A stretch of DNA of 46,242 nt from a virus, in IMG/VR virus record IMGVR_UViG_3300007542_000005, positions 1 to 46,242 of that record; one strand, written 5' to 3'. Below, piece by piece: positions 579 to 13,590 of the stretch. The notes beneath the pieces were generated by a model. That model saw nothing but the letters and a program-made list of their open reading frames with translations, did not search any database and was not told where the DNA came from. The position numbers and the translations under genes are program-made. Numbering within the stretch: the stretch's first letter is position 1; each line of letters opens with the position of its first letter.

Positions 579-602
579 TCCTGGTGAAGAATAATGGAAT
601 AA

Positions 603-617
603 GTACTTGACAGGTAC
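603..617 (+). promoter_or_regulatory. GTAC-TTGACAG-GTAC promoter/operator element, copy 1
   Basis: The 15-bp element GTACTTGACAGGTAC contains a perfect -35-like TTGACA at 607-612, framed by two GTAC half-sites. It reads rightwards, 44 bp before the ATG of the first small gene at 661. Three more copies read leftwards at 6923-6937, 8582-8596 and 11050-11064, each before a transcription unit. The expected -10 position (about 630-635, TAGCTG) is poor, so either an activator or a phage factor helps, or the element is mainly an operator. It also lies back to back with the leftward TerS start. Confidence 0.65.
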
Positions 618-4393: not shown

Positions 4394-4621
4394 CTACGGT
4401 GCGGCTGGGCCTTTCTTTGTATCGGCTAAGGTCTCCGCAGTCGAGAGCGCGCTCGATAGCACAGCCTCAAACTGGCGTAGCCAGTCGGTCATGAACTGCT
4501 GGTGCTGCTGGAGGGCGTACTCAGACGCGCCGGCGGCGCGCTGCATGTCGCTAGCGGCGGCGGCCATGTTGTGCCCCGCGCGGCTTACCTCTTCTGCGCC
4601 GATAAGGTGCATGGTGTTCAT
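4394..4621 (-). CDS. Conserved small helical phage protein, 75 residues
   Basis: The product begins MNTMHLIGAEEVSRAGHNM and continues as an almost wholly helical, Ala-rich chain with AAAASDMQRAA and HQQFMTDWLRQFE segments. It is typical of a small conserved phage hypothetical protein found among replication genes. AAAGGAGACGAC stands directly before the ATG at 4621, and the start overlaps the stop of the HNH gene (ATGA). No DNA-binding or catalytic motif is apparent. Its amphipathic helices could form a dimer or coiled coil. Confidence 0.7.
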   Translation of the reverse strand: MNTMHLIGAEEVSRAGHNMAAAASDMQRAAGASEYALQQHQQFMTDWLRQFEAVLSSALSTAETLADTKKGPAAP

Positions 4622-4956
4622 GTCGTCTCCTTTGCCGCAGCTGCGCGGCGTTTCTGGTTCTCTTTGTGCGTGACCAGCTCGCCGTGCTTGTCCGCCACGC
4701 ACATGCGGCGGCGGCAGAGATGGTCGATCTGCTTCTTGCCGGGGATGAACCCGTGCTCATTGGTCCACGCCACCAGATGGACGGCCACCGTCTGCCCGTC
4801 CAGGCTCATGCGCGGGTAGTCGCCACCGCGGCCGCTGCCGCTGTGCGGGCCCTGCCAGATCTTGCAGGGGCCCAGCTCAGCAGGCATCCAGTCTGGCGCA
4901 GGCTCTTCGACGACGCGCGCGGCGATCTTGGCCTTTATGCGCTCGCGGCGGGTCAC
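4618..4956 (-). CDS. HNH endonuclease (free-standing homing type)
   Basis: 112-residue protein with the features of small phage HNH nucleases. There is a CKIWQG motif near residue 31, then GGDYPRMSLDG and VAVHLVAWTNEHG. The HNH core follows as KKQIDHLCRRRMCVADKHGELVTHKENQKRR (given here only to show the IDHLC and H..E..THKEN elements). Cys pairs suggest zinc binding. It starts with GTG at 4956, which overlaps the upstream stop (GTGA). Free-standing HNH genes often spread by cutting related phages that lack them, and replication genes are common targets. Another possibility is a nicking role in packaging, but it is far from the terminase. Confidence 0.85.
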   Translation of the reverse strand: MTRRERIKAKIAARVVEEPAPDWMPAELGPCKIWQGPHSGSGRGGDYPRMSLDGQTVAVHLVAWTNEHGFIPGKKQIDHLCRRRMCVADKHGELVTHKENQKRRAAAAKETT

Positions 4957-5688: not shown

Positions 5689-5824
5689 TCCCTTCCTCCC
5701 CATTGAGGGTAGAGCGGCCTGCGGGGGTGTGTTCTGCGCGGTACTGAATTGCGAAATAGGCGTAGGTCCCACAGATCATGAACGCTATGGCAAGCGCCGC
5801 GCAGATACGCATGTTGCTGCTCAT
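5681..5824 (-). CDS. Very small membrane protein, 47 residues
   Basis: The ATG at 5824 overlaps the stop of the preceding gene (ATGA) and the TGA is at 5681-5683. The peptide starts MSSNMRICAALAIAFMICG, a basic residue followed by a hydrophobic stretch, then TYAYFAIQYRAEHTPAG and a short polar tail. This fits a signal anchor or a single transmembrane helix with its C-terminus outside. Its end overlaps the start of the 65-residue membrane gene. The tight overlaps on both sides and coding-like sequence support a real gene despite its size. Function is unknown. Confidence 0.6.
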   Translation of the reverse strand: MSSNMRICAALAIAFMICGTYAYFAIQYRAEHTPAGRSTLNGEEGNG

Positions 5825-6081
5825 GGCATCCGCCCGTAATCGAGTTGGAAAACGATCCAGCCGTTCGTTTCACGCATGGGCTTTATCAATCGACCGATGC
5901 CGCAATTCCTGACGCACCAGTGTCCTTTGTATCGAAATGGTCGCCTTGTGATGATCTTGCCCCCCTCGAAACGCGCCAACACGCGGGGCTGATAGCGCGA
6001 CGATGGGCTTGCTTTAGCCTCCCATTCACGGTCCTCCGCGATGGCGTCCGCAACGAACTGGTCCAGTTCATCCTTACTCAC
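5821..6081 (-). CDS. Small protein, 86 residues, unknown
   Basis: Starts with GTG at 6081, with GGAAGGC directly upstream, and overlaps the preceding stop (GTGA). A helical acidic N-terminus (KDELDQFVADAIAEDREWE) is followed by a basic strand-rich part (ARFEGGKIITRRPFRYKGHWCVRNCGIGRL) with a Cys-x3-Cys pair. The end is INGWIVFQLDYG-like (NGWIVFQLDYGRMP). No family is recognised. The upstream in-frame extension was rejected because it lies wholly inside the MazG-like gene and has no ribosome site. Confidence 0.6.
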   Translation of the reverse strand: MSKDELDQFVADAIAEDREWEAKASPSSRYQPRVLARFEGGKIITRRPFRYKGHWCVRNCGIGRLIKPMRETNGWIVFQLDYGRMP

Positions 6082-6922: not shown

Positions 6923-6937
6923 GTACCTGTCAAGTAC
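6923..6937 (-). promoter_or_regulatory. GTAC-TTGACAG-GTAC promoter/operator element, copy 2
   Basis: Exact leftward copy of GTACTTGACAGGTAC. The TTGACA is at 6933-6928, and 17 bp further on is CTAGAT, close to the CTATAT-like -10 box of alphaproteobacterial promoters. The TAA stop of the DNA-polymerase C-terminal gene (6938-6940) abuts the element directly. It heads the unit from the MazG-like gene through the primase-polymerase. Confidence 0.65.
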
Positions 6938-8032
6938 TTAATACTTGGATTTCGAATAGTACCACTTGGTGGTGATTTCGCTCACCAGCGGCAGGTCATG
7001 GCGCCACTCGGGGCGGTGCTCCATGATCTGCTTGAGCACGGTGGCTGCCTCCTCCGCGTCGTCTTCTGCAGGCTCCGTGACGCCCTCGTCGTGGGTGTGC
7101 CCCACGACAGGCATCCATGGCTGCCCATCACGCAGGATGAGCTCGGGGAACGGCGTGAAGTCAGGGTCCAGCCACACCAGCACCTCGCGCAGGATCGAGC
7201 CAGCCACAGCCTGCGTGATGTTCTCGGCCAGCTTGCCGTACCAGAGCGTCGACCAGCCATAACCCTTCTTGAACCATAGCGCCGTCACCTCTTTCATCTC
7301 GCCGGTCGACTTGTCCTTGACCGAACGCGTGCGCCAGCGGATGTCGGGGTAGCTCAGCAGGCGACCGCAGGGCAACGCACAGAACAGCGTGCCACCCATG
7401 TAGCTGGGATCGTAGGCGTAGGCCACGCGGCCAGCCACGAAGGCTTGGTTGGGGTTCTCGAGCGCCTGATTGGCGGCACCCCATAGGCCAGACGACCCGT
7501 ATTTGTCGTGGCTGCCCCAGAACTCCTTGGCCCACGGGTTGGTCGCGCGCCACGTGTCGACCACCCACTGTGCACGGGTGTCGTCGAGGAACACGCCATA
7601 GTTTGTCGCCATGGCCTGCAGGGCGCCGAGACCGCCGCCGAAGCCTAGTGACAGCACGGGCACCTTGCCCTGCCCCTGGCGCAGCTCGCTGGCCTGCTTG
7701 GCGAGGTCTTCACCGTGCAGCCCGCGGTAGCACTCCCACCACCAGTAGGGGTCTTCGTTGATCAGGGCGCAGGCGGTGCGGATGTAGACATCAGGCTCGC
7801 TCTCGTCGATGTCACTCTTGCGAAAGATGTCGAGCTGCGCCTCGCCGCCGGTGCTGCCTGCCAGCCATGGCAGGACGCGCGCCTCGATGGCAGACCAGTC
7901 ACCCCACACAAAGGTCTTGCCCTTGGGTGCGATGAAGCTGGGGCGCACCAGCATGGAGAGAACCTTGCCGACGGCCAGGCCGCCGGCAGACTGGGACAGG
8001 TTCTCGAGGAAGGCTTCGTTGAGCTCAGTCAC
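6938..8032 (-). CDS. DNA polymerase family A, C-terminal half (palm and fingers)
   Basis: 364-residue catalytic part of a Pol I-type polymerase. Motif A is GDWSAIEARVLPWL with D45 and E50. The fingers carry GQGKVPVLSLGFGGG with K123, and Phe131 where most relatives have Tyr. Motif C is GHTHDEG near residue 312. It lacks the exonuclease domain and the start of the palm, which are encoded separately at 8950-10206. The start is GTG at 8032, preceded by GGAGG at 11 nt and overlapping the stop of the 67-residue gene. No intein sequence is present, so the two halves presumably fold together without being joined. The halves have separate promoters, so their dosage may not be equal. Confidence 0.92.
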   Translation of the reverse strand: MTELNEAFLENLSQSAGGLAVGKVLSMLVRPSFIAPKGKTFVWGDWSAIEARVLPWLAGSTGGEAQLDIFRKSDIDESEPDVYIRTACALINEDPYWWWECYRGLHGEDLAKQASELRQGQGKVPVLSLGFGGGLGALQAMATNYGVFLDDTRAQWVVDTWRATNPWAKEFWGSHDKYGSSGLWGAANQALENPNQAFVAGRVAYAYDPSYMGGTLFCALPCGRLLSYPDIRWRTRSVKDKSTGEMKEVTALWFKKGYGWSTLWYGKLAENITQAVAGSILREVLVWLDPDFTPFPELILRDGQPWMPVVGHTHDEGVTEPAEDDAEEAATVLKQIMEHRPEWRHDLPLVSEITTKWYYSKSKY

Positions 8033-8228
8033 GGGACAAGGCCTCCGCCGCTGCGCGCTTGATGTCGATCACGGTGGCCGACATATCCTTGGCGGCGCGC
8101 ACGATGGCGAGCACACCGTCGGGTGTCTGCGGGTCGACGCCGTCCATGGCCGAGAAGGCCCTCTCGATCGCGACCTGCGCGTCCTTGTGGATGGCGGTCA
8201 GTGCCGCCTCAAGTTTCTGCTGGCGCAT
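8025..8228 (-). CDS. Small helical protein, 67 residues, between polymerase halves
   Basis: The ATG at 8228 overlaps the previous stop by one base (TGATG). The product begins MRQQKLEAALTAIHKDAQVA and is an almost continuous amphipathic helix, with a short PQTPDG turn and then VLAIVRAAKDMSATVIDIKRAAAE. It looks like a small helical hairpin or coiled-coil subunit. No family is recognised. It lies immediately upstream of, and overlaps, the polymerase C-terminal gene, so a role in polymerase assembly is conceivable but unproven. Confidence 0.65.
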   Translation of the reverse strand: MRQQKLEAALTAIHKDAQVAIERAFSAMDGVDPQTPDGVLAIVRAAKDMSATVIDIKRAAAEALSRD

Positions 8229-8440
8229 CACTCTATCTCCTCGCGGCGCTCGGTGGTGGTCCACTTGAGCGTCACCTCGTCACCGTAGAAGTCAGGGATG
8301 TCGAGCTCCGCGCCGCGGATAGCGTCCACGGGCACCTTGAACCGCTCGATCAGAATGTCGCGGATAAGGTCAACGGGGATGGTCACCGTGTTGGTGATCT
8401 TAACCTCGGTGGCGACGCGGGTCTTTGCTGTCTGCGCCAT
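8228..8440 (-). CDS. Small conserved-looking phage protein, 70 residues
   Basis: The preferred start is ATG at 8440 (MAQTAKTRVATEVKITNTV); an in-frame GTG two codons earlier is also possible. The central VTIPVDLIRDILIERFKVP is strand then helix. The acidic C-terminal half contains ELDIPDFYGDEVTLKW and ends EEIE. The pattern resembles small phage proteins with a helix-bearing substrate- or DNA-contacting fold, but I cannot assign a family. It is separated by 2 nt from the 30-residue peptide upstream and overlaps the 67-residue gene downstream. Confidence 0.65.
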   Translation of the reverse strand: MAQTAKTRVATEVKITNTVTIPVDLIRDILIERFKVPVDAIRGAELDIPDFYGDEVTLKWTTTERREEIE

Positions 8441-8442
8441 GA

Positions 8443-8535
8443 TCACAACCCCAGCAGGATCTTGAAGACCCAGAGCGTGATGAAGGCGCTGATGGTGTAG
8501 AGCGCGTATTTGATGACAGTCTCGGTGTCAGGCAT
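8443..8535 (-). CDS. 30-residue membrane peptide
   Basis: An ATG at 8535, preceded by CAGGAGACCGACG, opens a 30-codon gene ending at a TGA (8443-8445) two bases before the next ATG. The peptide MPDTETVIKYALYTISAFIT... is a single hydrophobic helix (about residues 8-29) with a charged N-terminus. The ribosome site is as good as those of the other first genes in early units. This is the first gene after the GTAC element at 8582-8596. Its function is unknown. Confidence 0.6.
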   Translation of the reverse strand: MPDTETVIKYALYTISAFITLWVFKILLGL

Positions 8536-8581
8536 CGTCGGTCTCCTGTAGTTGGGACCACGTTTATGCGCTATGTGGGGA

Positions 8582-8596
8582 GTACCTGTCAAGCAC
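8582..8596 (-). promoter_or_regulatory. GTAC-TTGACAG-GTAC promoter/operator element, copy 3
   Basis: Leftward copy with one half-site change (GTGC for GTAC on the upstream side). TTGACA lies at 8592-8587, and CATAAA at 8568-8563 is a plausible -10 at 18-bp spacing. A strong leftward terminator (8632-8607) stands just upstream, so this element restarts transcription for the cluster that includes the polymerase C-terminal half. Confidence 0.65.
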
Positions 8597-8606
8597 TTAG
8601 ACAAAG

Positions 8607-8632
8607 AAAAAACCCGGCTGGTGAGGCCGGGT
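8607..8632 (-). terminator. Rho-independent terminator after polymerase N-terminal unit
   Basis: On the minus strand CCCGGC-CTCACCA-GCCGGG is followed by TTTTTT. It ends the leftward unit containing the polymerase exonuclease half and the 86-residue membrane gene, 10-15 bp before the next promoter element. Confidence 0.9.
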
Positions 8633-8676
8633 CAAGTTTGTCGCGGTCAGGGAGGAGGATAGACCGCCTGCGCAGC

Positions 8677-8937
8677 CTACGCCCGATCGTCGTGCCGATC
8701 AATAGCGTCGTCGAACTCGCTGCGCGGCCGTGGCGGGTAGGGGAACGGCACGTGGGCGGGGTCACCGCTGCTGAACTGTATGTCCATGGCGGCTGGCCAC
8801 CGGTGCGGTGACGCCAGCGGCTGAACGACAGGTGCCCTGGCTGACCGGGAGCCGTGCAGCGCGCCGATCAGGTAGCCGGCGGCGAAGATGGCGACGCCGA
8901 GGCCCAGTGCAATCACGAGTGTTTCGTAGGAAGTCAT
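8677..8937 (-). CDS. Small membrane protein, 86 residues, between polymerase halves
   Basis: The ATG at 8937 is preceded by AAGGAGAACGACG, which begins at the stop of the polymerase N-terminal gene. The product starts MTSYETLVIALGLGVAIFAAG, a hydrophobic segment to about residue 26. A long Pro- and Arg-rich polar tail follows (PHRWPAAMDIQF, PFPYPPRPRSEFDDAIDRH). A single N-terminal membrane anchor with the tail on the cytoplasmic or periplasmic side is likely. No family is recognised. It is the last gene before the terminator at 8632-8607. Confidence 0.65.
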   Translation of the reverse strand: MTSYETLVIALGLGVAIFAAGYLIGALHGSRSARAPVVQPLASPHRWPAAMDIQFSSGDPAHVPFPYPPRPRSEFDDAIDRHDDRA

Positions 8938-8949
8938 CGTCGTTCTCCT

Positions 8950-10206
8950 TCAGGTGAGCTCGTAGGGTATGTCGAGACTGTTAAGAATTTCCAAAAGCAA
9001 CGGCTCAAGTTTGCCGAGAGATGCACGCATCAGGTTATGGACCTGCACACCACGCGAGCTGAAGCGACCAGTCTGGGCGGCGCCGTTGAACGAGTACTGA
9101 CCCATCAGCCGCTCGCCGACATGCTGGTCGACGATCTTGGCGAACTTCTTGGGGGTTGCACTCGAGCCGAACATGCGCGCCTCCATGATCTGCCACAGCT
9201 CGAACTCATCGTCAGTCAGGCCGGTGCTCTCGTCGCGGTGCACGAACCATGCGTCGAGCGCCTCGAGCCGATCACTGGCGACCGACAGCTTGACGGCCAC
9301 CATCTCGCTGTCGCCATCGGTGATCAGGTCGTCGTCCTCCCACTGCTTGACCAGGATGTCGCGCGCCTCATTGGACGGCAGCCGATCGAACAGCCACTCG
9401 CCGATCTTGGCGTGCTGACCGACGGTGCTGATCGACCCATCTGTCAGCTCGCGCAGGTCACGGTTGATCTTTGCCTCATTCAGCTTGGCTACGGCGGCAG
9501 CACGGCGGCAGAACTCGACGTCCACCATCATGCCGCGCTCGTTGATGGCCTCGCTGACCCAATACTCCTGCCACTCCTTGAGCGGCAGCGGGCGTGTCGC
9601 CTTGTAGACCTCGCGCATCTCGTCGGTGTCCTGCTCGGCGTAGGTGCCGAAGCGCTCGTACTCGACGGGGTGCGTCTGGGGGCTGACGTCGTTGTCCTTG
9701 GCGAACAACCCGATCAGGCCCTTGCCATCCTGCTGCTTGCCGCCGCGGCCGATCGCCCGGCTGGCGCCCTCCAGCTTGGCGGGCAGGTTCGACGCCACAG
9801 CCTGCGCCATGACGTCGATGAACATGCGTGGCCTGAAGCCGGGACATCCGACGATCTCATTCATCACCACCCTGTCGAACTGGGCGTTCCACGCGGCGAA
9901 CCACGCTGTGTGGTTCTCCGCACGGATGAAGTGCTGCTTGAGATCCTGCGGTAGATCGCGCCAGCGGATCAGGTTGTCCTTGCCGTCCATCGTCTTGAAA
10001 GACTGGATAGCCAGGCGCTTCACCTTCTCATGCCCGATCGCGTAGGTGATGATGGTGATGAAGCTGTGCTTGGCGTAGCGATAAGCGCCGGCGGTGGTCA
10101 CGTTCTCGTCGGACGTGCCGGCGGTGCCCTGCTTGGCACGGGTCTCCGTGTCGATGAAGCAGATGTCGGCCAGGTCGTCGGTGAGGGGGGCGGAAAGGTT
10201 GGTCAC
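8950..10206 (-). CDS. DNA polymerase family A, N-terminal half (3'-5' exonuclease and thumb)
   Basis: 418-residue half of a Pol I-type polymerase. Exonuclease motif I is FIDTET (D19, E21), motif II AWNAQFDR (D111) and motif III TYAEQD (Y189, D193), so proofreading should be active. The thumb follows, and then GRFSSRGVQVHNLMR near residues 380-394, the conserved entry to the palm. The protein stops 24 residues later, before motif A. The rest of the palm and the fingers are encoded at 6938-8032, after 0.9 kb of other genes, a terminator and a promoter element. The start is GTG at 10206, overlapping the upstream stop (GTGA) with GGGGCGAG upstream. No splice junction or intein is evident. Confidence 0.92.
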   Translation of the reverse strand: MTNLSAPLTDDLADICFIDTETRAKQGTAGTSDENVTTAGAYRYAKHSFITIITYAIGHEKVKRLAIQSFKTMDGKDNLIRWRDLPQDLKQHFIRAENHTAWFAAWNAQFDRVVMNEIVGCPGFRPRMFIDVMAQAVASNLPAKLEGASRAIGRGGKQQDGKGLIGLFAKDNDVSPQTHPVEYERFGTYAEQDTDEMREVYKATRPLPLKEWQEYWVSEAINERGMMVDVEFCRRAAAVAKLNEAKINRDLRELTDGSISTVGQHAKIGEWLFDRLPSNEARDILVKQWEDDDLITDGDSEMVAVKLSVASDRLEALDAWFVHRDESTGLTDDEFELWQIMEARMFGSSATPKKFAKIVDQHVGERLMGQYSFNGAAQTGRFSSRGVQVHNLMRASLGKLEPLLLEILNSLDIPYELT

Positions 10207-10463
10207 AGCTCGCCCCGGCGTTTGGCCGCGTTAAGCCGGCGGCGGCCGAGCGCTGTCGGCACGTACATCCGGGCGTCCAGCATATCCCCGGGCTTAAAAC
10301 AGCCCTCAAGCTGCTTGTGGATAGCGGACGGTATGCGCAGCGTTTCCCCGTAGCCTTTAAGCACGAAAAAGCCGGGGGCTTCGTCGACAGCTGCGTAGTG
10401 GTGCGCGGTGGTGTCGATCCAGTTCAGCGCCTGCACGGGCGTTTTAGCCGTAAGCTGTGCCAT
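10203..10463 (-). CDS. Small protein, 86 residues, unknown
   Basis: The ATG at 10463 overlaps the previous stop (TGATG), with GGGGAG about 6 nt upstream. The product begins MAQLTAKTPVQALNWIDTTA. It is strand-rich in the middle (APGFFVLKGYGETLRIPS) and ends basic (LGRRRLNAAKRRGEL). The KPGDMLDARMYVPTALG portion suggests a small beta-barrel that could contact nucleic acid. No family is recognised. It directly precedes and overlaps the polymerase exonuclease half. Confidence 0.65.
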   Translation of the reverse strand: MAQLTAKTPVQALNWIDTTAHHYAAVDEAPGFFVLKGYGETLRIPSAIHKQLEGCFKPGDMLDARMYVPTALGRRRLNAAKRRGEL

Positions 10464-10750
10464 CACGAACTCCCCAGCAGGCGTTGCGTCTCGGTGGCGG
10501 CCAGCTGCTTGGCTCCTTGCACCTCGCCGGTGCACAGGCGCCCCAGGCGCTGGGCCAGAGGCCCGCTGAACGACATGAAGTCGAGGTGCGTCTTGGCCTT
10601 GCTCGTCGAGCCGTCCGCCATCAGGCGGACGAAGCCGCCGCCGACCTTGGCGTAGAGATAGCCGTCGCGCGTGAAGATATCCACCTGCTGGTAGACGCCA
10701 TTGGTGACGAGGATCGCTGCCTCGCCTTCAGCTTGCTTGAAGAAACTCAT
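10463..10750 (-). CDS. Small protein, 95 residues, unknown (possible DNA-binding beta fold)
   Basis: The ATG at 10750 overlaps the upstream stop (ATGA). Sequence elements are MSFFKQAEGEAAILVTNGVY, VDIFTRDGYLYAKVGGGFVRL, a basic STSKAKTHLDF loop and a C-terminal helix with RLGRLCTGEVQGAKQL. Alternating hydrophobic residues imply a beta-sheet of four or five strands. I cannot place it in a family. Position among replication genes, immediately upstream of two further small genes and the polymerase half, suggests a replication accessory. Confidence 0.65.
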   Translation of the reverse strand: MSFFKQAEGEAAILVTNGVYQQVDIFTRDGYLYAKVGGGFVRLMADGSTSKAKTHLDFMSFSGPLAQRLGRLCTGEVQGAKQLAATETQRLLGSS

Positions 10751-11049: not shown

Positions 11050-11064
11050 GTACCTGTCAAGTAC
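11050..11064 (-). promoter_or_regulatory. GTAC-TTGACAG-GTAC promoter/operator element, copy 4
   Basis: Exact leftward copy; here the arms extend to GGTAC and GTACC around the 7-bp TTGACAG. No recognisable -10 lies 16-18 bp downstream (GCAGGG at 17 bp), the clearest sign that this is not an ordinary host promoter. A terminator (11100-11071) stands just upstream, as at copy 3. Confidence 0.6.
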
Positions 11065-11070
11065 CTAACA

Positions 11071-11130: not shown

Positions 11131-11955
11131 TTAGCGGCGACGACGGCGCACCTCGCCACCAGTAGCCGGGGCGGGCTGCTCTGGGGCGGTTTCTTCTGCG
11201 GCAGGCTCTTCAGCCTTGGCCGCTACGGTAGGCGTGCGAGCGGCGCGACGTGGCGCGGCAGCGGTCTTGGGCTCTTCAGCCGGTGCCTCTTCAGCGGGGG
11301 CGTCGCCGGCATCCGAGCCGTCAGGCGCGTCGGCCGTGCCGTCGTCAGCTGCAACACCATCCATCGAGATCCAGTCGACGATCTCGATCAGCGGCGTGTA
11401 GGTCTTGCCGTAGGTCTTGTGCTGGTAGTGGTCGCTCTTGAGCACGACGACGGGCACGGGGTGCGCTTCGTCAGTGTCGAGCTGCGCCATGATCTTGCCG
11501 ATCAGTTCCTTCATGGCGTTGGCGCCACCGACAGACGAAGGCTTGTATTCAGTCTGTTCGCCTTCATCTTCACCGCTGATGCAGCGCAGACCGACGCAGG
11601 TCTGCTCAGCCCACGGGTGGCCGTAGTCGGGCAGGCTCGACAGGAGAGGCTTGTCTTCGAACATCGACACCAGGATCTCGCCCAGCTTCTCAGGCTTGTC
11701 GGCCTTGTTGTTCGGATCGGTCTTCTTCCAGCAGATGAAACCGTGCTGCAGGCTGAGCGGGTTGACGGCCCACTCGGAACCGGCTTCGACTTCAATGTTT
11801 TCGGCGCCGTAGATCCACTTGCCGTCGCGGCCCATACGGAGGATAGGCTCGCCGCCAGCTGCGGGGATGGACTGCTGCACCTTGGCCAGGCCGGCCTTGA
11901 GATTGCCGAGACCTGCAAGGGCGCCGGCTGCTTTGGTAGTCTGAAGGGTAGACAT
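11131..11955 (-). CDS. Probable ssDNA-binding/recombination partner of DUF2800 protein (274 residues)
   Basis: The N-terminal two thirds (about residues 30-195) form a strand-rich domain with GGEPILRMGRDGKWIYG, QHGFICWKK, GEILVSMFEDKP and VPVVVLKSDHYQHKTYGKTY, then IEIVDWISMDG. The last 75 residues are a low-complexity Ala/Pro/Glu linker ending in a run of five Arg. In many phages a DUF2800 gene is followed by a single-strand-binding-like protein, and this gene has that position. That is positional inference; no OB-fold signature is proven. The ATG at 11955 has only a weak GAAAGA site. A terminator follows the stop by 30 bp. Confidence 0.5.
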   Translation of the reverse strand: MSTLQTTKAAGALAGLGNLKAGLAKVQQSIPAAGGEPILRMGRDGKWIYGAENIEVEAGSEWAVNPLSLQHGFICWKKTDPNNKADKPEKLGEILVSMFEDKPLLSSLPDYGHPWAEQTCVGLRCISGEDEGEQTEYKPSSVGGANAMKELIGKIMAQLDTDEAHPVPVVVLKSDHYQHKTYGKTYTPLIEIVDWISMDGVAADDGTADAPDGSDAGDAPAEEAPAEEPKTAAAPRRAARTPTVAAKAEEPAAEETAPEQPAPATGGEVRRRRR

Positions 11956-12087: not shown

Positions 12088-13590
12088 CTAGAGCGACGCG
12101 AGCTTGTTTGCCAGCGCGCCTATAGCGGCTGACGTCAACACCACAGCTTCACGATTGTCATCGGCTGCGGCGAGTGTGTGTCCAGACGATACGCCTGGCT
12201 TGATGTACTTGGCAAGTACCTTTGCGCCTTTCTCGTCAAGTTTTCCGAGCGCCTTGAGCTTGGCCTTGGCGACGGCTGGCGTGATTGGTTTGACGACGCG
12301 GCGCTCCTCGAGCGGGACGCCGGCACGGCCGAGGAATTTCTCCGCCTTGTCGTCGTCCTCCCACTTGTCATGGCCTGCCTTCTTGGGCACCAGCTTGTAG
12401 CCGGGGATCTCGCCACCGGCCTCGAGGAACGACTGGGCACCAGCACCGAGCGCCGACAGCAGCGGGCCCAGTGTGTCGGCCAGCTGCAGCCCGACAGCGT
12501 AGGCGTCACCCATGGTCATGGATGAAGGCATCGGCTCACCGGGCAGGATCAGCTCCACCTCTGCAGTCTTGAGATCCTGCAGCGTGAGCGTCGTGTCGCG
12601 CAGCTTGGACAGCTTGCTGGTGATCTCGGCAGCTGCCTCCGCACCGTTCAGGTGCAGCTTGCAGATCTGCTTGCAGTCGGCGAAGCGGCAGTGGCTGCCC
12701 TTGGACATGGGGGCGTCGAGCCCCTTCTCGATCGCCAGGTCGACGGCGTCGATAAGGTCGAGGCGGAAGTCCTCGAGCTCCTGCACCGTCGAGTGGTAGA
12801 TGCTGGGCTCGCCGTCACCGATGCGCGGCTGGCAGATCACCAGATCGACAGGCCACTCAGGATCGTCCTCGAAATAGTCGGGGTGCGTATGCTGGGCACC
12901 GCGGCCGTAGAACGACAGCTGCTCGTTGCCGAAGTCCTGCGGCTCATCGGAGCCCTCGACCGACCGCTTGTAGCTGGCGTAGACCGGCACACCAGCGCCG
13001 AACTTCCAGTCCCAGATCGCCGTGCGCACAGGCGTGCGGATGGTGATGTCGCTGGTGCCGAAGGCGCCGTCGATGCCGGGTAGCTCAACGCGCTGCTCGA
13101 CCAGGATGCGGATCTCTGGATCGGCGAAGCCTGCCGCCTCAGCCTCAGCGAACAGCCCGTCCAGATACTTGTTGAACTCGCGGTAGGCGGGGATGACGGC
13201 ATCGAAGAACCGCTGCTCGCTCAGGTCGTACTGGGCGAAGAGCTCGTCCACTTTCTCGTCAGTCGAGAGCATCATCTGGTCGACGTCGTTGTCGACGAGA
13301 TACGCCATCACTTCATGCAGGCCGGTGCCCTCATCGGCATAGCTGCTGGAGCGGTTGAGGCTGGCGCGGATGCCCGCGGCCTTTTCGGCGAACTCGGCCG
13401 CTTCCGTGTCGTCGGTTGCGGCGGCGGCCATAGCGTCATACTGCGCTGCCTCCGCCTCCACCATGCCACCCAGCTTGCCGAGCATGGCTACACTGGCAGG
13501 GCAGTTGATGACGCGGGCGGACGAGGAGCCGCCGACAATGTCGGAGTGCTGGTCGGGGGTCTTGTCGTGGGTGATCGCTTCAGTGGTCAA
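12088..13590 (-). CDS. DUF2800 family protein (PD-(D/E)XK nuclease-like)
   Basis: 500-residue protein with hallmarks of phage DUF2800, related to Cas4/RecB-type nucleases. It has SSSARVINCPASVAMLGKL near residue 22, the EGTGLHEVMAYL motif near 87, GIDGAFGTSDITI near 173 with the catalytic WDWKFGAGVPVY (Asp and Lys) soon after, NEQLSFYGRGAQ, and a Cys-rich SHCRFADCKQICKLH that may ligate iron-sulphur or zinc. It probably processes DNA ends during recombination-dependent replication or repair. The start is TTG at 13590 with AGAGGA upstream, overlapping the RHH gene by 11 nt. A degenerate copy of the GTAC element lies inside the gene at 12205-12219. Confidence 0.85.
   Translation of the reverse strand: MTTEAITHDKTPDQHSDIVGGSSSARVINCPASVAMLGKLGGMVEAEAAQYDAMAAAATDDTEAAEFAEKAAGIRASLNRSSSYADEGTGLHEVMAYLVDNDVDQMMLSTDEKVDELFAQYDLSEQRFFDAVIPAYREFNKYLDGLFAEAEAAGFADPEIRILVEQRVELPGIDGAFGTSDITIRTPVRTAIWDWKFGAGVPVYASYKRSVEGSDEPQDFGNEQLSFYGRGAQHTHPDYFEDDPEWPVDLVICQPRIGDGEPSIYHSTVQELEDFRLDLIDAVDLAIEKGLDAPMSKGSHCRFADCKQICKLHLNGAEAAAEITSKLSKLRDTTLTLQDLKTAEVELILPGEPMPSSMTMGDAYAVGLQLADTLGPLLSALGAGAQSFLEAGGEIPGYKLVPKKAGHDKWEDDDKAEKFLGRAGVPLEERRVVKPITPAVAKAKLKALGKLDEKGAKVLAKYIKPGVSSGHTLAAADDNREAVVLTSAAIGALANKLASL

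Follow-up and report, generated by a model that had tools for sequence, protein, structure and literature searches.

The window analysed here is a 46,242-base phage record (IMG/VR IMGVR_UViG_3300007542_000005), and all window coordinates refer to the whole record. It carries a family A DNA polymerase in two genes, which very probably encode the two subunits of one replicative enzyme that underwent ancient fission at a tolerant loop, the genes being separated later. The first gene (N-half; 8950-10206, minus strand, 418 aa) comprises the 3'-5' exonuclease, the thumb and palm motif 1 (TGRFSSRGVQVHNL). The second gene (C-half; 6938-8032, minus strand, 364 aa, GTG start) comprises the palm/fingers part with motifs A (DWSAIEAR), B (GKVPVLSLGFGGG) and C (HTHDE). 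The N-half ends with IPYELT and a stop codon, and the C-half begins with VTELNEAF. Each half has its own start and ribosome-binding site, and a terminator-like hairpin lies in between.

The phrog_17 DNA polymerase profile was covered by the N-half at positions 670-989 (E 2.4e-29) and by the C-half at 989-1233; the products are therefore successive parts of one enzyme, with nothing lost. The exonuclease residues Asp19, Glu21, Asn107, Asp111, Tyr189 and Asp193 and motif 1 (TGRxSS) of the N-half were invariant in the aligned relatives, as were Asp45 (motif A), Lys123 (motif B) and His314-Asp315-Glu316 (motif C) of the C-half. Family A membership follows from the catalytic residues of motifs A, B and C in the C-half, with the exonuclease, thumb and motif 1 present on the separate N-half. 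The initial annotation had proposed one polymerase in two genes with intact catalytic motifs, and both the open reading frames (ORFs) and the invariant residues bear this out. Its division into an exonuclease-thumb half and a palm-fingers half needs one correction: motif 1 of the palm sits in the N-half, so the cut falls inside the polymerase domain and not exactly at its boundary. Modelled alone, the C-half was predicted to form a well-formed palm/fingers module (predicted local distance difference test, pLDDT, 93.7), which resembles PolA structures (Foldseek, E 1.4e-10). A search of the whole record found a single N-half, a single C-half and no unsplit polymerase; the two genes together amount to one enzyme, and the genome has no intact copy, as in the split enzymes of the gp43A/B or NrdA type. 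We must also note that searches for a complete polA overlook such phages: Pfam DNA_pol_A (PF00476) matched only the end of the C-half, with 25.4 bits against a cut-off of 34.3 bits, and did not detect the N-half.

The joined halves aligned end to end with the unsplit polymerases of Nostoc phage Nsp-JY18 and of contig L003, with no missing piece; joining restored the family sequence without a gap, as had been anticipated. Between HN (after motif 1) and LIRP (before motif A), unsplit enzymes have 33-55 residues (median 42) and split pairs with a resolved start have 49-66. The corresponding count is 56 in the window (52 for a join at Glu-Leu) and 54 in the unsplit relative L020. We mapped the break onto L020 using joined half sequences, and it fell at residues 414-422 in 10 of 10 split pairs whose C-half start is resolved. 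The pairs sharing the site of the window are G001, G002, G003, G005, G006, L008, L009, L011 and L096. In an AlphaFold2 model of L020 (61 sequences, mean pLDDT 94.4), which resembles Pol I structures (best Foldseek match Bst Pol I, E 6e-16), helices 403-412 and 421-431 are connected by a loop at residues 413-420. When the phage profile was aligned to a cellular Pol I (8jrb), motif A of the latter followed motif 1 almost directly, whereas the phage profile was ~ 37 positions longer there; Klenow/Taq-type enzymes are devoid of this stretch. Since the break maps to this extra region of variable length, the cut lies in a phage-specific stretch, where the least harm is expected.

Searches of IMG/VR and cultured phages with the two halves showed dozens of relatives with a single ORF; on at least 10 other contigs the gene is broken at the same loop or only one half is present. 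The content between the halves differed widely. It included a 2.9-kb gap with a C5-cytosine methylase (G001, contigs L002/L006), a 2.4-kb gap with an N6/N4 methylase (G002, L059), a gap of about 6.2 kb (G003, L037/L086), a gap of about 0.8 kb with a calcineurin-like phosphoesterase (L008), and also 13 unknown genes. In G005 (L012/L088) the N-half, one gene for 97 residues and the C-half are overlapping genes. No genes at all separate the halves in L009 and L011, where they overlap by ATGA, or in L096, where they overlap slightly. Moreover, at least G006 (L010/L087) and G007 (L034/L092) have their halves on opposite strands, with distances of about 8 kb and about 3 kb, respectively; the contig L036/L091, related to G007, is strand-separated too. 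On the visible part of contigs L007, L033 and L125, the C-half occurs without an N-half, and L125 carries a DUF2800 gene on the other strand. Whole-record searches showed that split records have one N-half and one C-half each and no second polymerase, with the exception of G005, which has extra C-terminal pieces; in L012, a second, partial copy of the polymerase C-terminus (5709-5882, motif C onwards) lies downstream of the intact gene. A stop codon was observed within the C-half match in L076, L081 and L082.

All-against-all blastp of the called genes showed that nearly every gene between the halves is specific to its lineage. We considered shared mobile cargo and rejected it, as the comparison gave only one match between G003 and G005 (30% identity, 91 aa) and one displaced gene, located upstream of the N-half in the window and inside the gap in G003. 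The layouts of the window and G002 are alike (a small membrane protein, a terminator, a palindrome, a protein of ~ 70 residues and a small membrane peptide), although sequence similarity was not significant. In G006, an HNH endonuclease gene (L010, about 10005-10465) directly follows the relocated C-half and is a candidate agent of its move.

In a 37-row tree the window grouped with G001 and G002 (100/99), and in a 75-row tree it fell inside a seven-row clade in which all rows are split (Shimodaira-Hasegawa-like approximate likelihood ratio test 98). Trees built separately from the two halves agreed in 11 of 19 splits, and their strongly supported branches did not conflict; the halves have therefore been inherited together, including the cases in which they now occupy opposite strands. 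In relatives, the gene is broken at this same loop, and the halves are separated by unrelated genes or placed on opposite strands; the break is therefore old and inherited, not a fresh insertion.

We propose that the gene was broken long ago in the surface loop between helices, within the phage-specific insertion between motifs 1 and A. The earliest form may have been a plain stop/start (ATGA) overlap. L020 is the unsplit sister of an ATGA-split pair, and ATGA-joined halves, as in L009 and L011, ease both directions, because small insertions or deletions link the split and unsplit states. After separation, other genes would have entered the gap or one half would have relocated, differently in each lineage. 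Subunit 1 would contribute the 3'-5' exonuclease, the thumb and the motif 1 hairpin, and subunit 2 the remaining palm and the fingers with motifs A, B and C. We expect the subunits to dock via the palm and to work as one enzyme.

Several points weigh against this account. The split rows require four or five changes on the tree, three of them forced, and a single clade of all split rows was rejected by the approximately unbiased (AU) test (p-AU 2e-90); fission and/or re-fusion therefore occurred more than once. Two histories fit, namely one split followed by re-fusion in L020, the Nsp-JY18 group and L003/L098, or repeated splits at one loop. Support for the deep branches of the split group is weak. 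Moreover, the split relatives are known from metagenomes, and assembly and activity of the subunits are deduced.

The initial annotation had noted four small genes, a terminator and a promoter element between the halves, and four small ORFs, a terminator-like hairpin and a promoter-like element do lie there. A hairpin with a T run resembling an intrinsic terminator (8611-8633, minus strand) is followed by a promoter/operator-like element (AAGTGCTTGACAGGTAC; 8582-8598, minus strand) containing TTGACA, at the head of the C-half unit. The 17-bp element (AAGTRCTTGACAGGTAC) occurs in four copies in the window at no more than one mismatch; even when up to three mismatches are allowed, only 0.07 matches in all would be expected by chance. 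The other copies lie upstream of the N-half unit (AGGTACTTGACAGGTAC; 11050-11066, minus strand), directly 3' of the C-half at the head of the next unit (6923-6939, minus strand), and at the head of a rightward unit (601-617, plus strand). The element is nearly palindromic (GTAC-N7-GTAC) and has the look of an operator over a -35 box. With each copy at the head of a transcription unit, the four form a candidate set of phage promoters/operators. The window halves are thus probably in separate transcription units with the same kind of switch. Because each half stands behind a copy of the same element, parallel rather than opposed control is suggested. The earlier idea of separate control of exonuclease and polymerase agrees with the separate units, but the shared element leaves it only partly plausible. 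In G002, a strong terminator and then a palindrome (GTACTGGACCAGTAC) lie between the halves. A related palindrome (ATGTACTTGGCAAGTAC, three mismatches) was observed inside the DUF2800 ORF of the window (12203-12221).

It is conceivable, though doubtful, that the subunits were kept separate through deep phage evolution, and were even relocated to opposite strands, because separating exonuclease-thumb from palm-fingers is itself useful. If so, the advantages could be proofreading dosage, subunit exchange in mixed infection or timed assembly. We regard it as unlikely that regulation uncouples the halves into independent enzymes, one a free exonuclease and the other a free polymerase. The separate transcription units of the window, with terminator and promoter-like element, and the existence of strand-separated forms would fit such a pair. 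Nevertheless, the C-half has neither thumb nor motif 1, both of which the N-half carries in invariant form, the halves were co-inherited without strong tree conflict, and the same 17-bp element stands ahead of both units.

The initial annotation suggested that a gene cluster had inserted into a once-single polA and duplicated 7 bp of its target; we now consider this highly improbable. The sequence GAGCTCA is indeed found in the same frame at both ends, at 8961-8955 and 8026-8020 on the minus strand, and chance had already been named as a possible cause. It occurs 17 times in the window, versus 10.1 expected. Unrelated gene-end/gene-start pairs of this genome share 7-base matches in 3.7% of cases (30-nt ends) and 11.7% (45-nt ends); with matches that frequent by chance, the repeat is not significant, and this end/start-pair control revealed no direct repeat beyond chance that would mark an insertion with target-site duplication. 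In six other split pairs the shared end/start match was at most 4-6 bases, none with GAGCTCA. Split relatives have a conserved C-half start (MTxLDxAFLD; L125 begins MMTELNHEFLD), so the Glu-Leu codons of the second copy belong to the family start, and the first copy is a chance repeat. A target-site duplication is therefore not supported. Furthermore, the site of the split is shared by relatives that have other genes, or none, between their halves, and family profile searches found no transposase, integrase or homing endonuclease among the four insert ORFs of the window. It is equally improbable that one half is decaying in a phage dependent on the host polymerase, as distant split lineages retain every catalytic residue of both halves unchanged, with frames open and single copies throughout; we found nothing in favour of this reading.

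Introns are known in phage polymerase genes, and inteins occur in relatives. The unsplit L071 (6928-10662) has an intein inside motif 1 (TGRF/SSRG) and a second in-frame interruption near the position of C-half residue 269. L012 (3854-4689) has an intein at GKL/CENVTQ, and L136 (9831-10624) has an in-frame interruption near the same residue (268-305); judging by these two, the vicinity of the conserved EN-TQ motif is a recurrent insertion site. Rejoining of the window halves by a group I/II intron, trans-splicing or a split intein is nonetheless scarcely credible. Neither the window nor seven relatives gave an intron family match, and the ends of the halves carry no intein sequence, in line with the initial annotation, which saw neither intein nor intron. 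The halves have separate starts and ribosome-binding sites with a terminator between, and opposite-strand forms could not be spliced in cis. In the window, no RNA or intron family scored above threshold, and the region gave sub-threshold small RNA matches only. We also observed a type II hammerhead ribozyme in L008 (7189-7257, minus strand), above the Rfam gathering score.

Split phage polymerases are already known, namely the T4-related gp43 and the polymerase of MEP401. According to PMC10580990, MEP401/402, phages of marine OM43 bacteria, encode their family A polymerase as two ORFs with a small ORF between them, the split is present in most group members, and the authors considered an intron. 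In MEP401 (OP830906), our motif reading shows that gp13 ends shortly past motif 1 (TGRLSSSSPNLQN) and gp15 starts at motif A (LNADAKALEW). The cut is likewise between motifs 1 and A, with the small unrelated ORF gp14 between the halves. However, it lies about 20 residues closer to motif A, only one ORF intervenes, and strand separation is not described for MEP401 in the available text of PMC10580990. The MEP401 polymerase lineage is very remote; profile comparison with the window lineage gave no significant match, and the equivalence therefore rests on motif reading.

In the T4-related Aeromonas phages 25 and 44RR the family B polymerase gp43 is split, and 43A/43B of phage 25 co-purify with polymerase activity; the split NrdA of Aeh1 is fully functional (PMC2988022). 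These are likewise phage replication enzymes in two polypeptides, with reassembly observed there and expected for the window. They differ in their homing endonuclease or untranslated insertions, gp43 belongs to another polymerase family, and the window insert has no endonuclease. The split Pol III alpha of jumbo phages (PMC7824862) and the split PolB of MIJ3 (PMC6892783) are also phage polymerases in pieces, but of other families, and MIJ3 PolB needs its split intein. Within the lineage itself, the unsplit PolA of Nsp-JY18, L020, L089 and L003 is orthologous and about 40% identical across both halves, but is a single gene with the loop intact.

To our knowledge, most gene fissions have been observed just once. 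The new element is a lineage whose split is old, recurrent or reversible, with changing genes between the halves and sometimes strand separation; we found nothing on it in the literature searched. A single polymerase lineage displays unsplit, ATGA-coupled and opposite-strand states and states with one to about fifteen genes between the halves. With this series, and with MEP401 cut between the same motifs, the path from one enzyme to two subunits and the reversibility of fission become directly testable.

Among cultured phages (lists sampled), the closest were Nostoc/Microcystis phages with 40-42% identity, which are unsplit, and a single polymerase gene was present in the Bacteroides, Caulobacter, BcepNazgul, Guernseyvirinae and Achromobacter AMA2 regions inspected. 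A scan of bacterial genomes for prophage hosts gave remote matches only (27-31% identity). Streptococcus phage Javan112 has two polymerase ORFs, but we rejected it as the same split, because its cut lies after motif A; the gene is possibly decayed.

The four genes between the window halves, all on the minus strand, encode an 86-aa protein with an N-terminal hydrophobic segment (8677-8937), a hydrophobic peptide of about 30 residues (8443-8535, ATG at 8535), a 70-aa protein (8228-8440) and a 67-aa protein (8025-8228) whose stop lies within the start of the C-half, with an 8-nt overlap. Profile searches gave no family match for any of the four. Upstream of the N-half are a phrog_9528 gene (11131-11955, minus strand), whose homologue also adjoins the N-half in related split phages, and a DUF2800/PD-(D/E)XK-like nuclease gene (12088-13590, minus strand), whose homologue is also found near the N-half in related split phages. 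Elsewhere in the window, an HNH_3 endonuclease gene is located at 4618-4956 (minus strand), and G003 has a homologue of it (50%).

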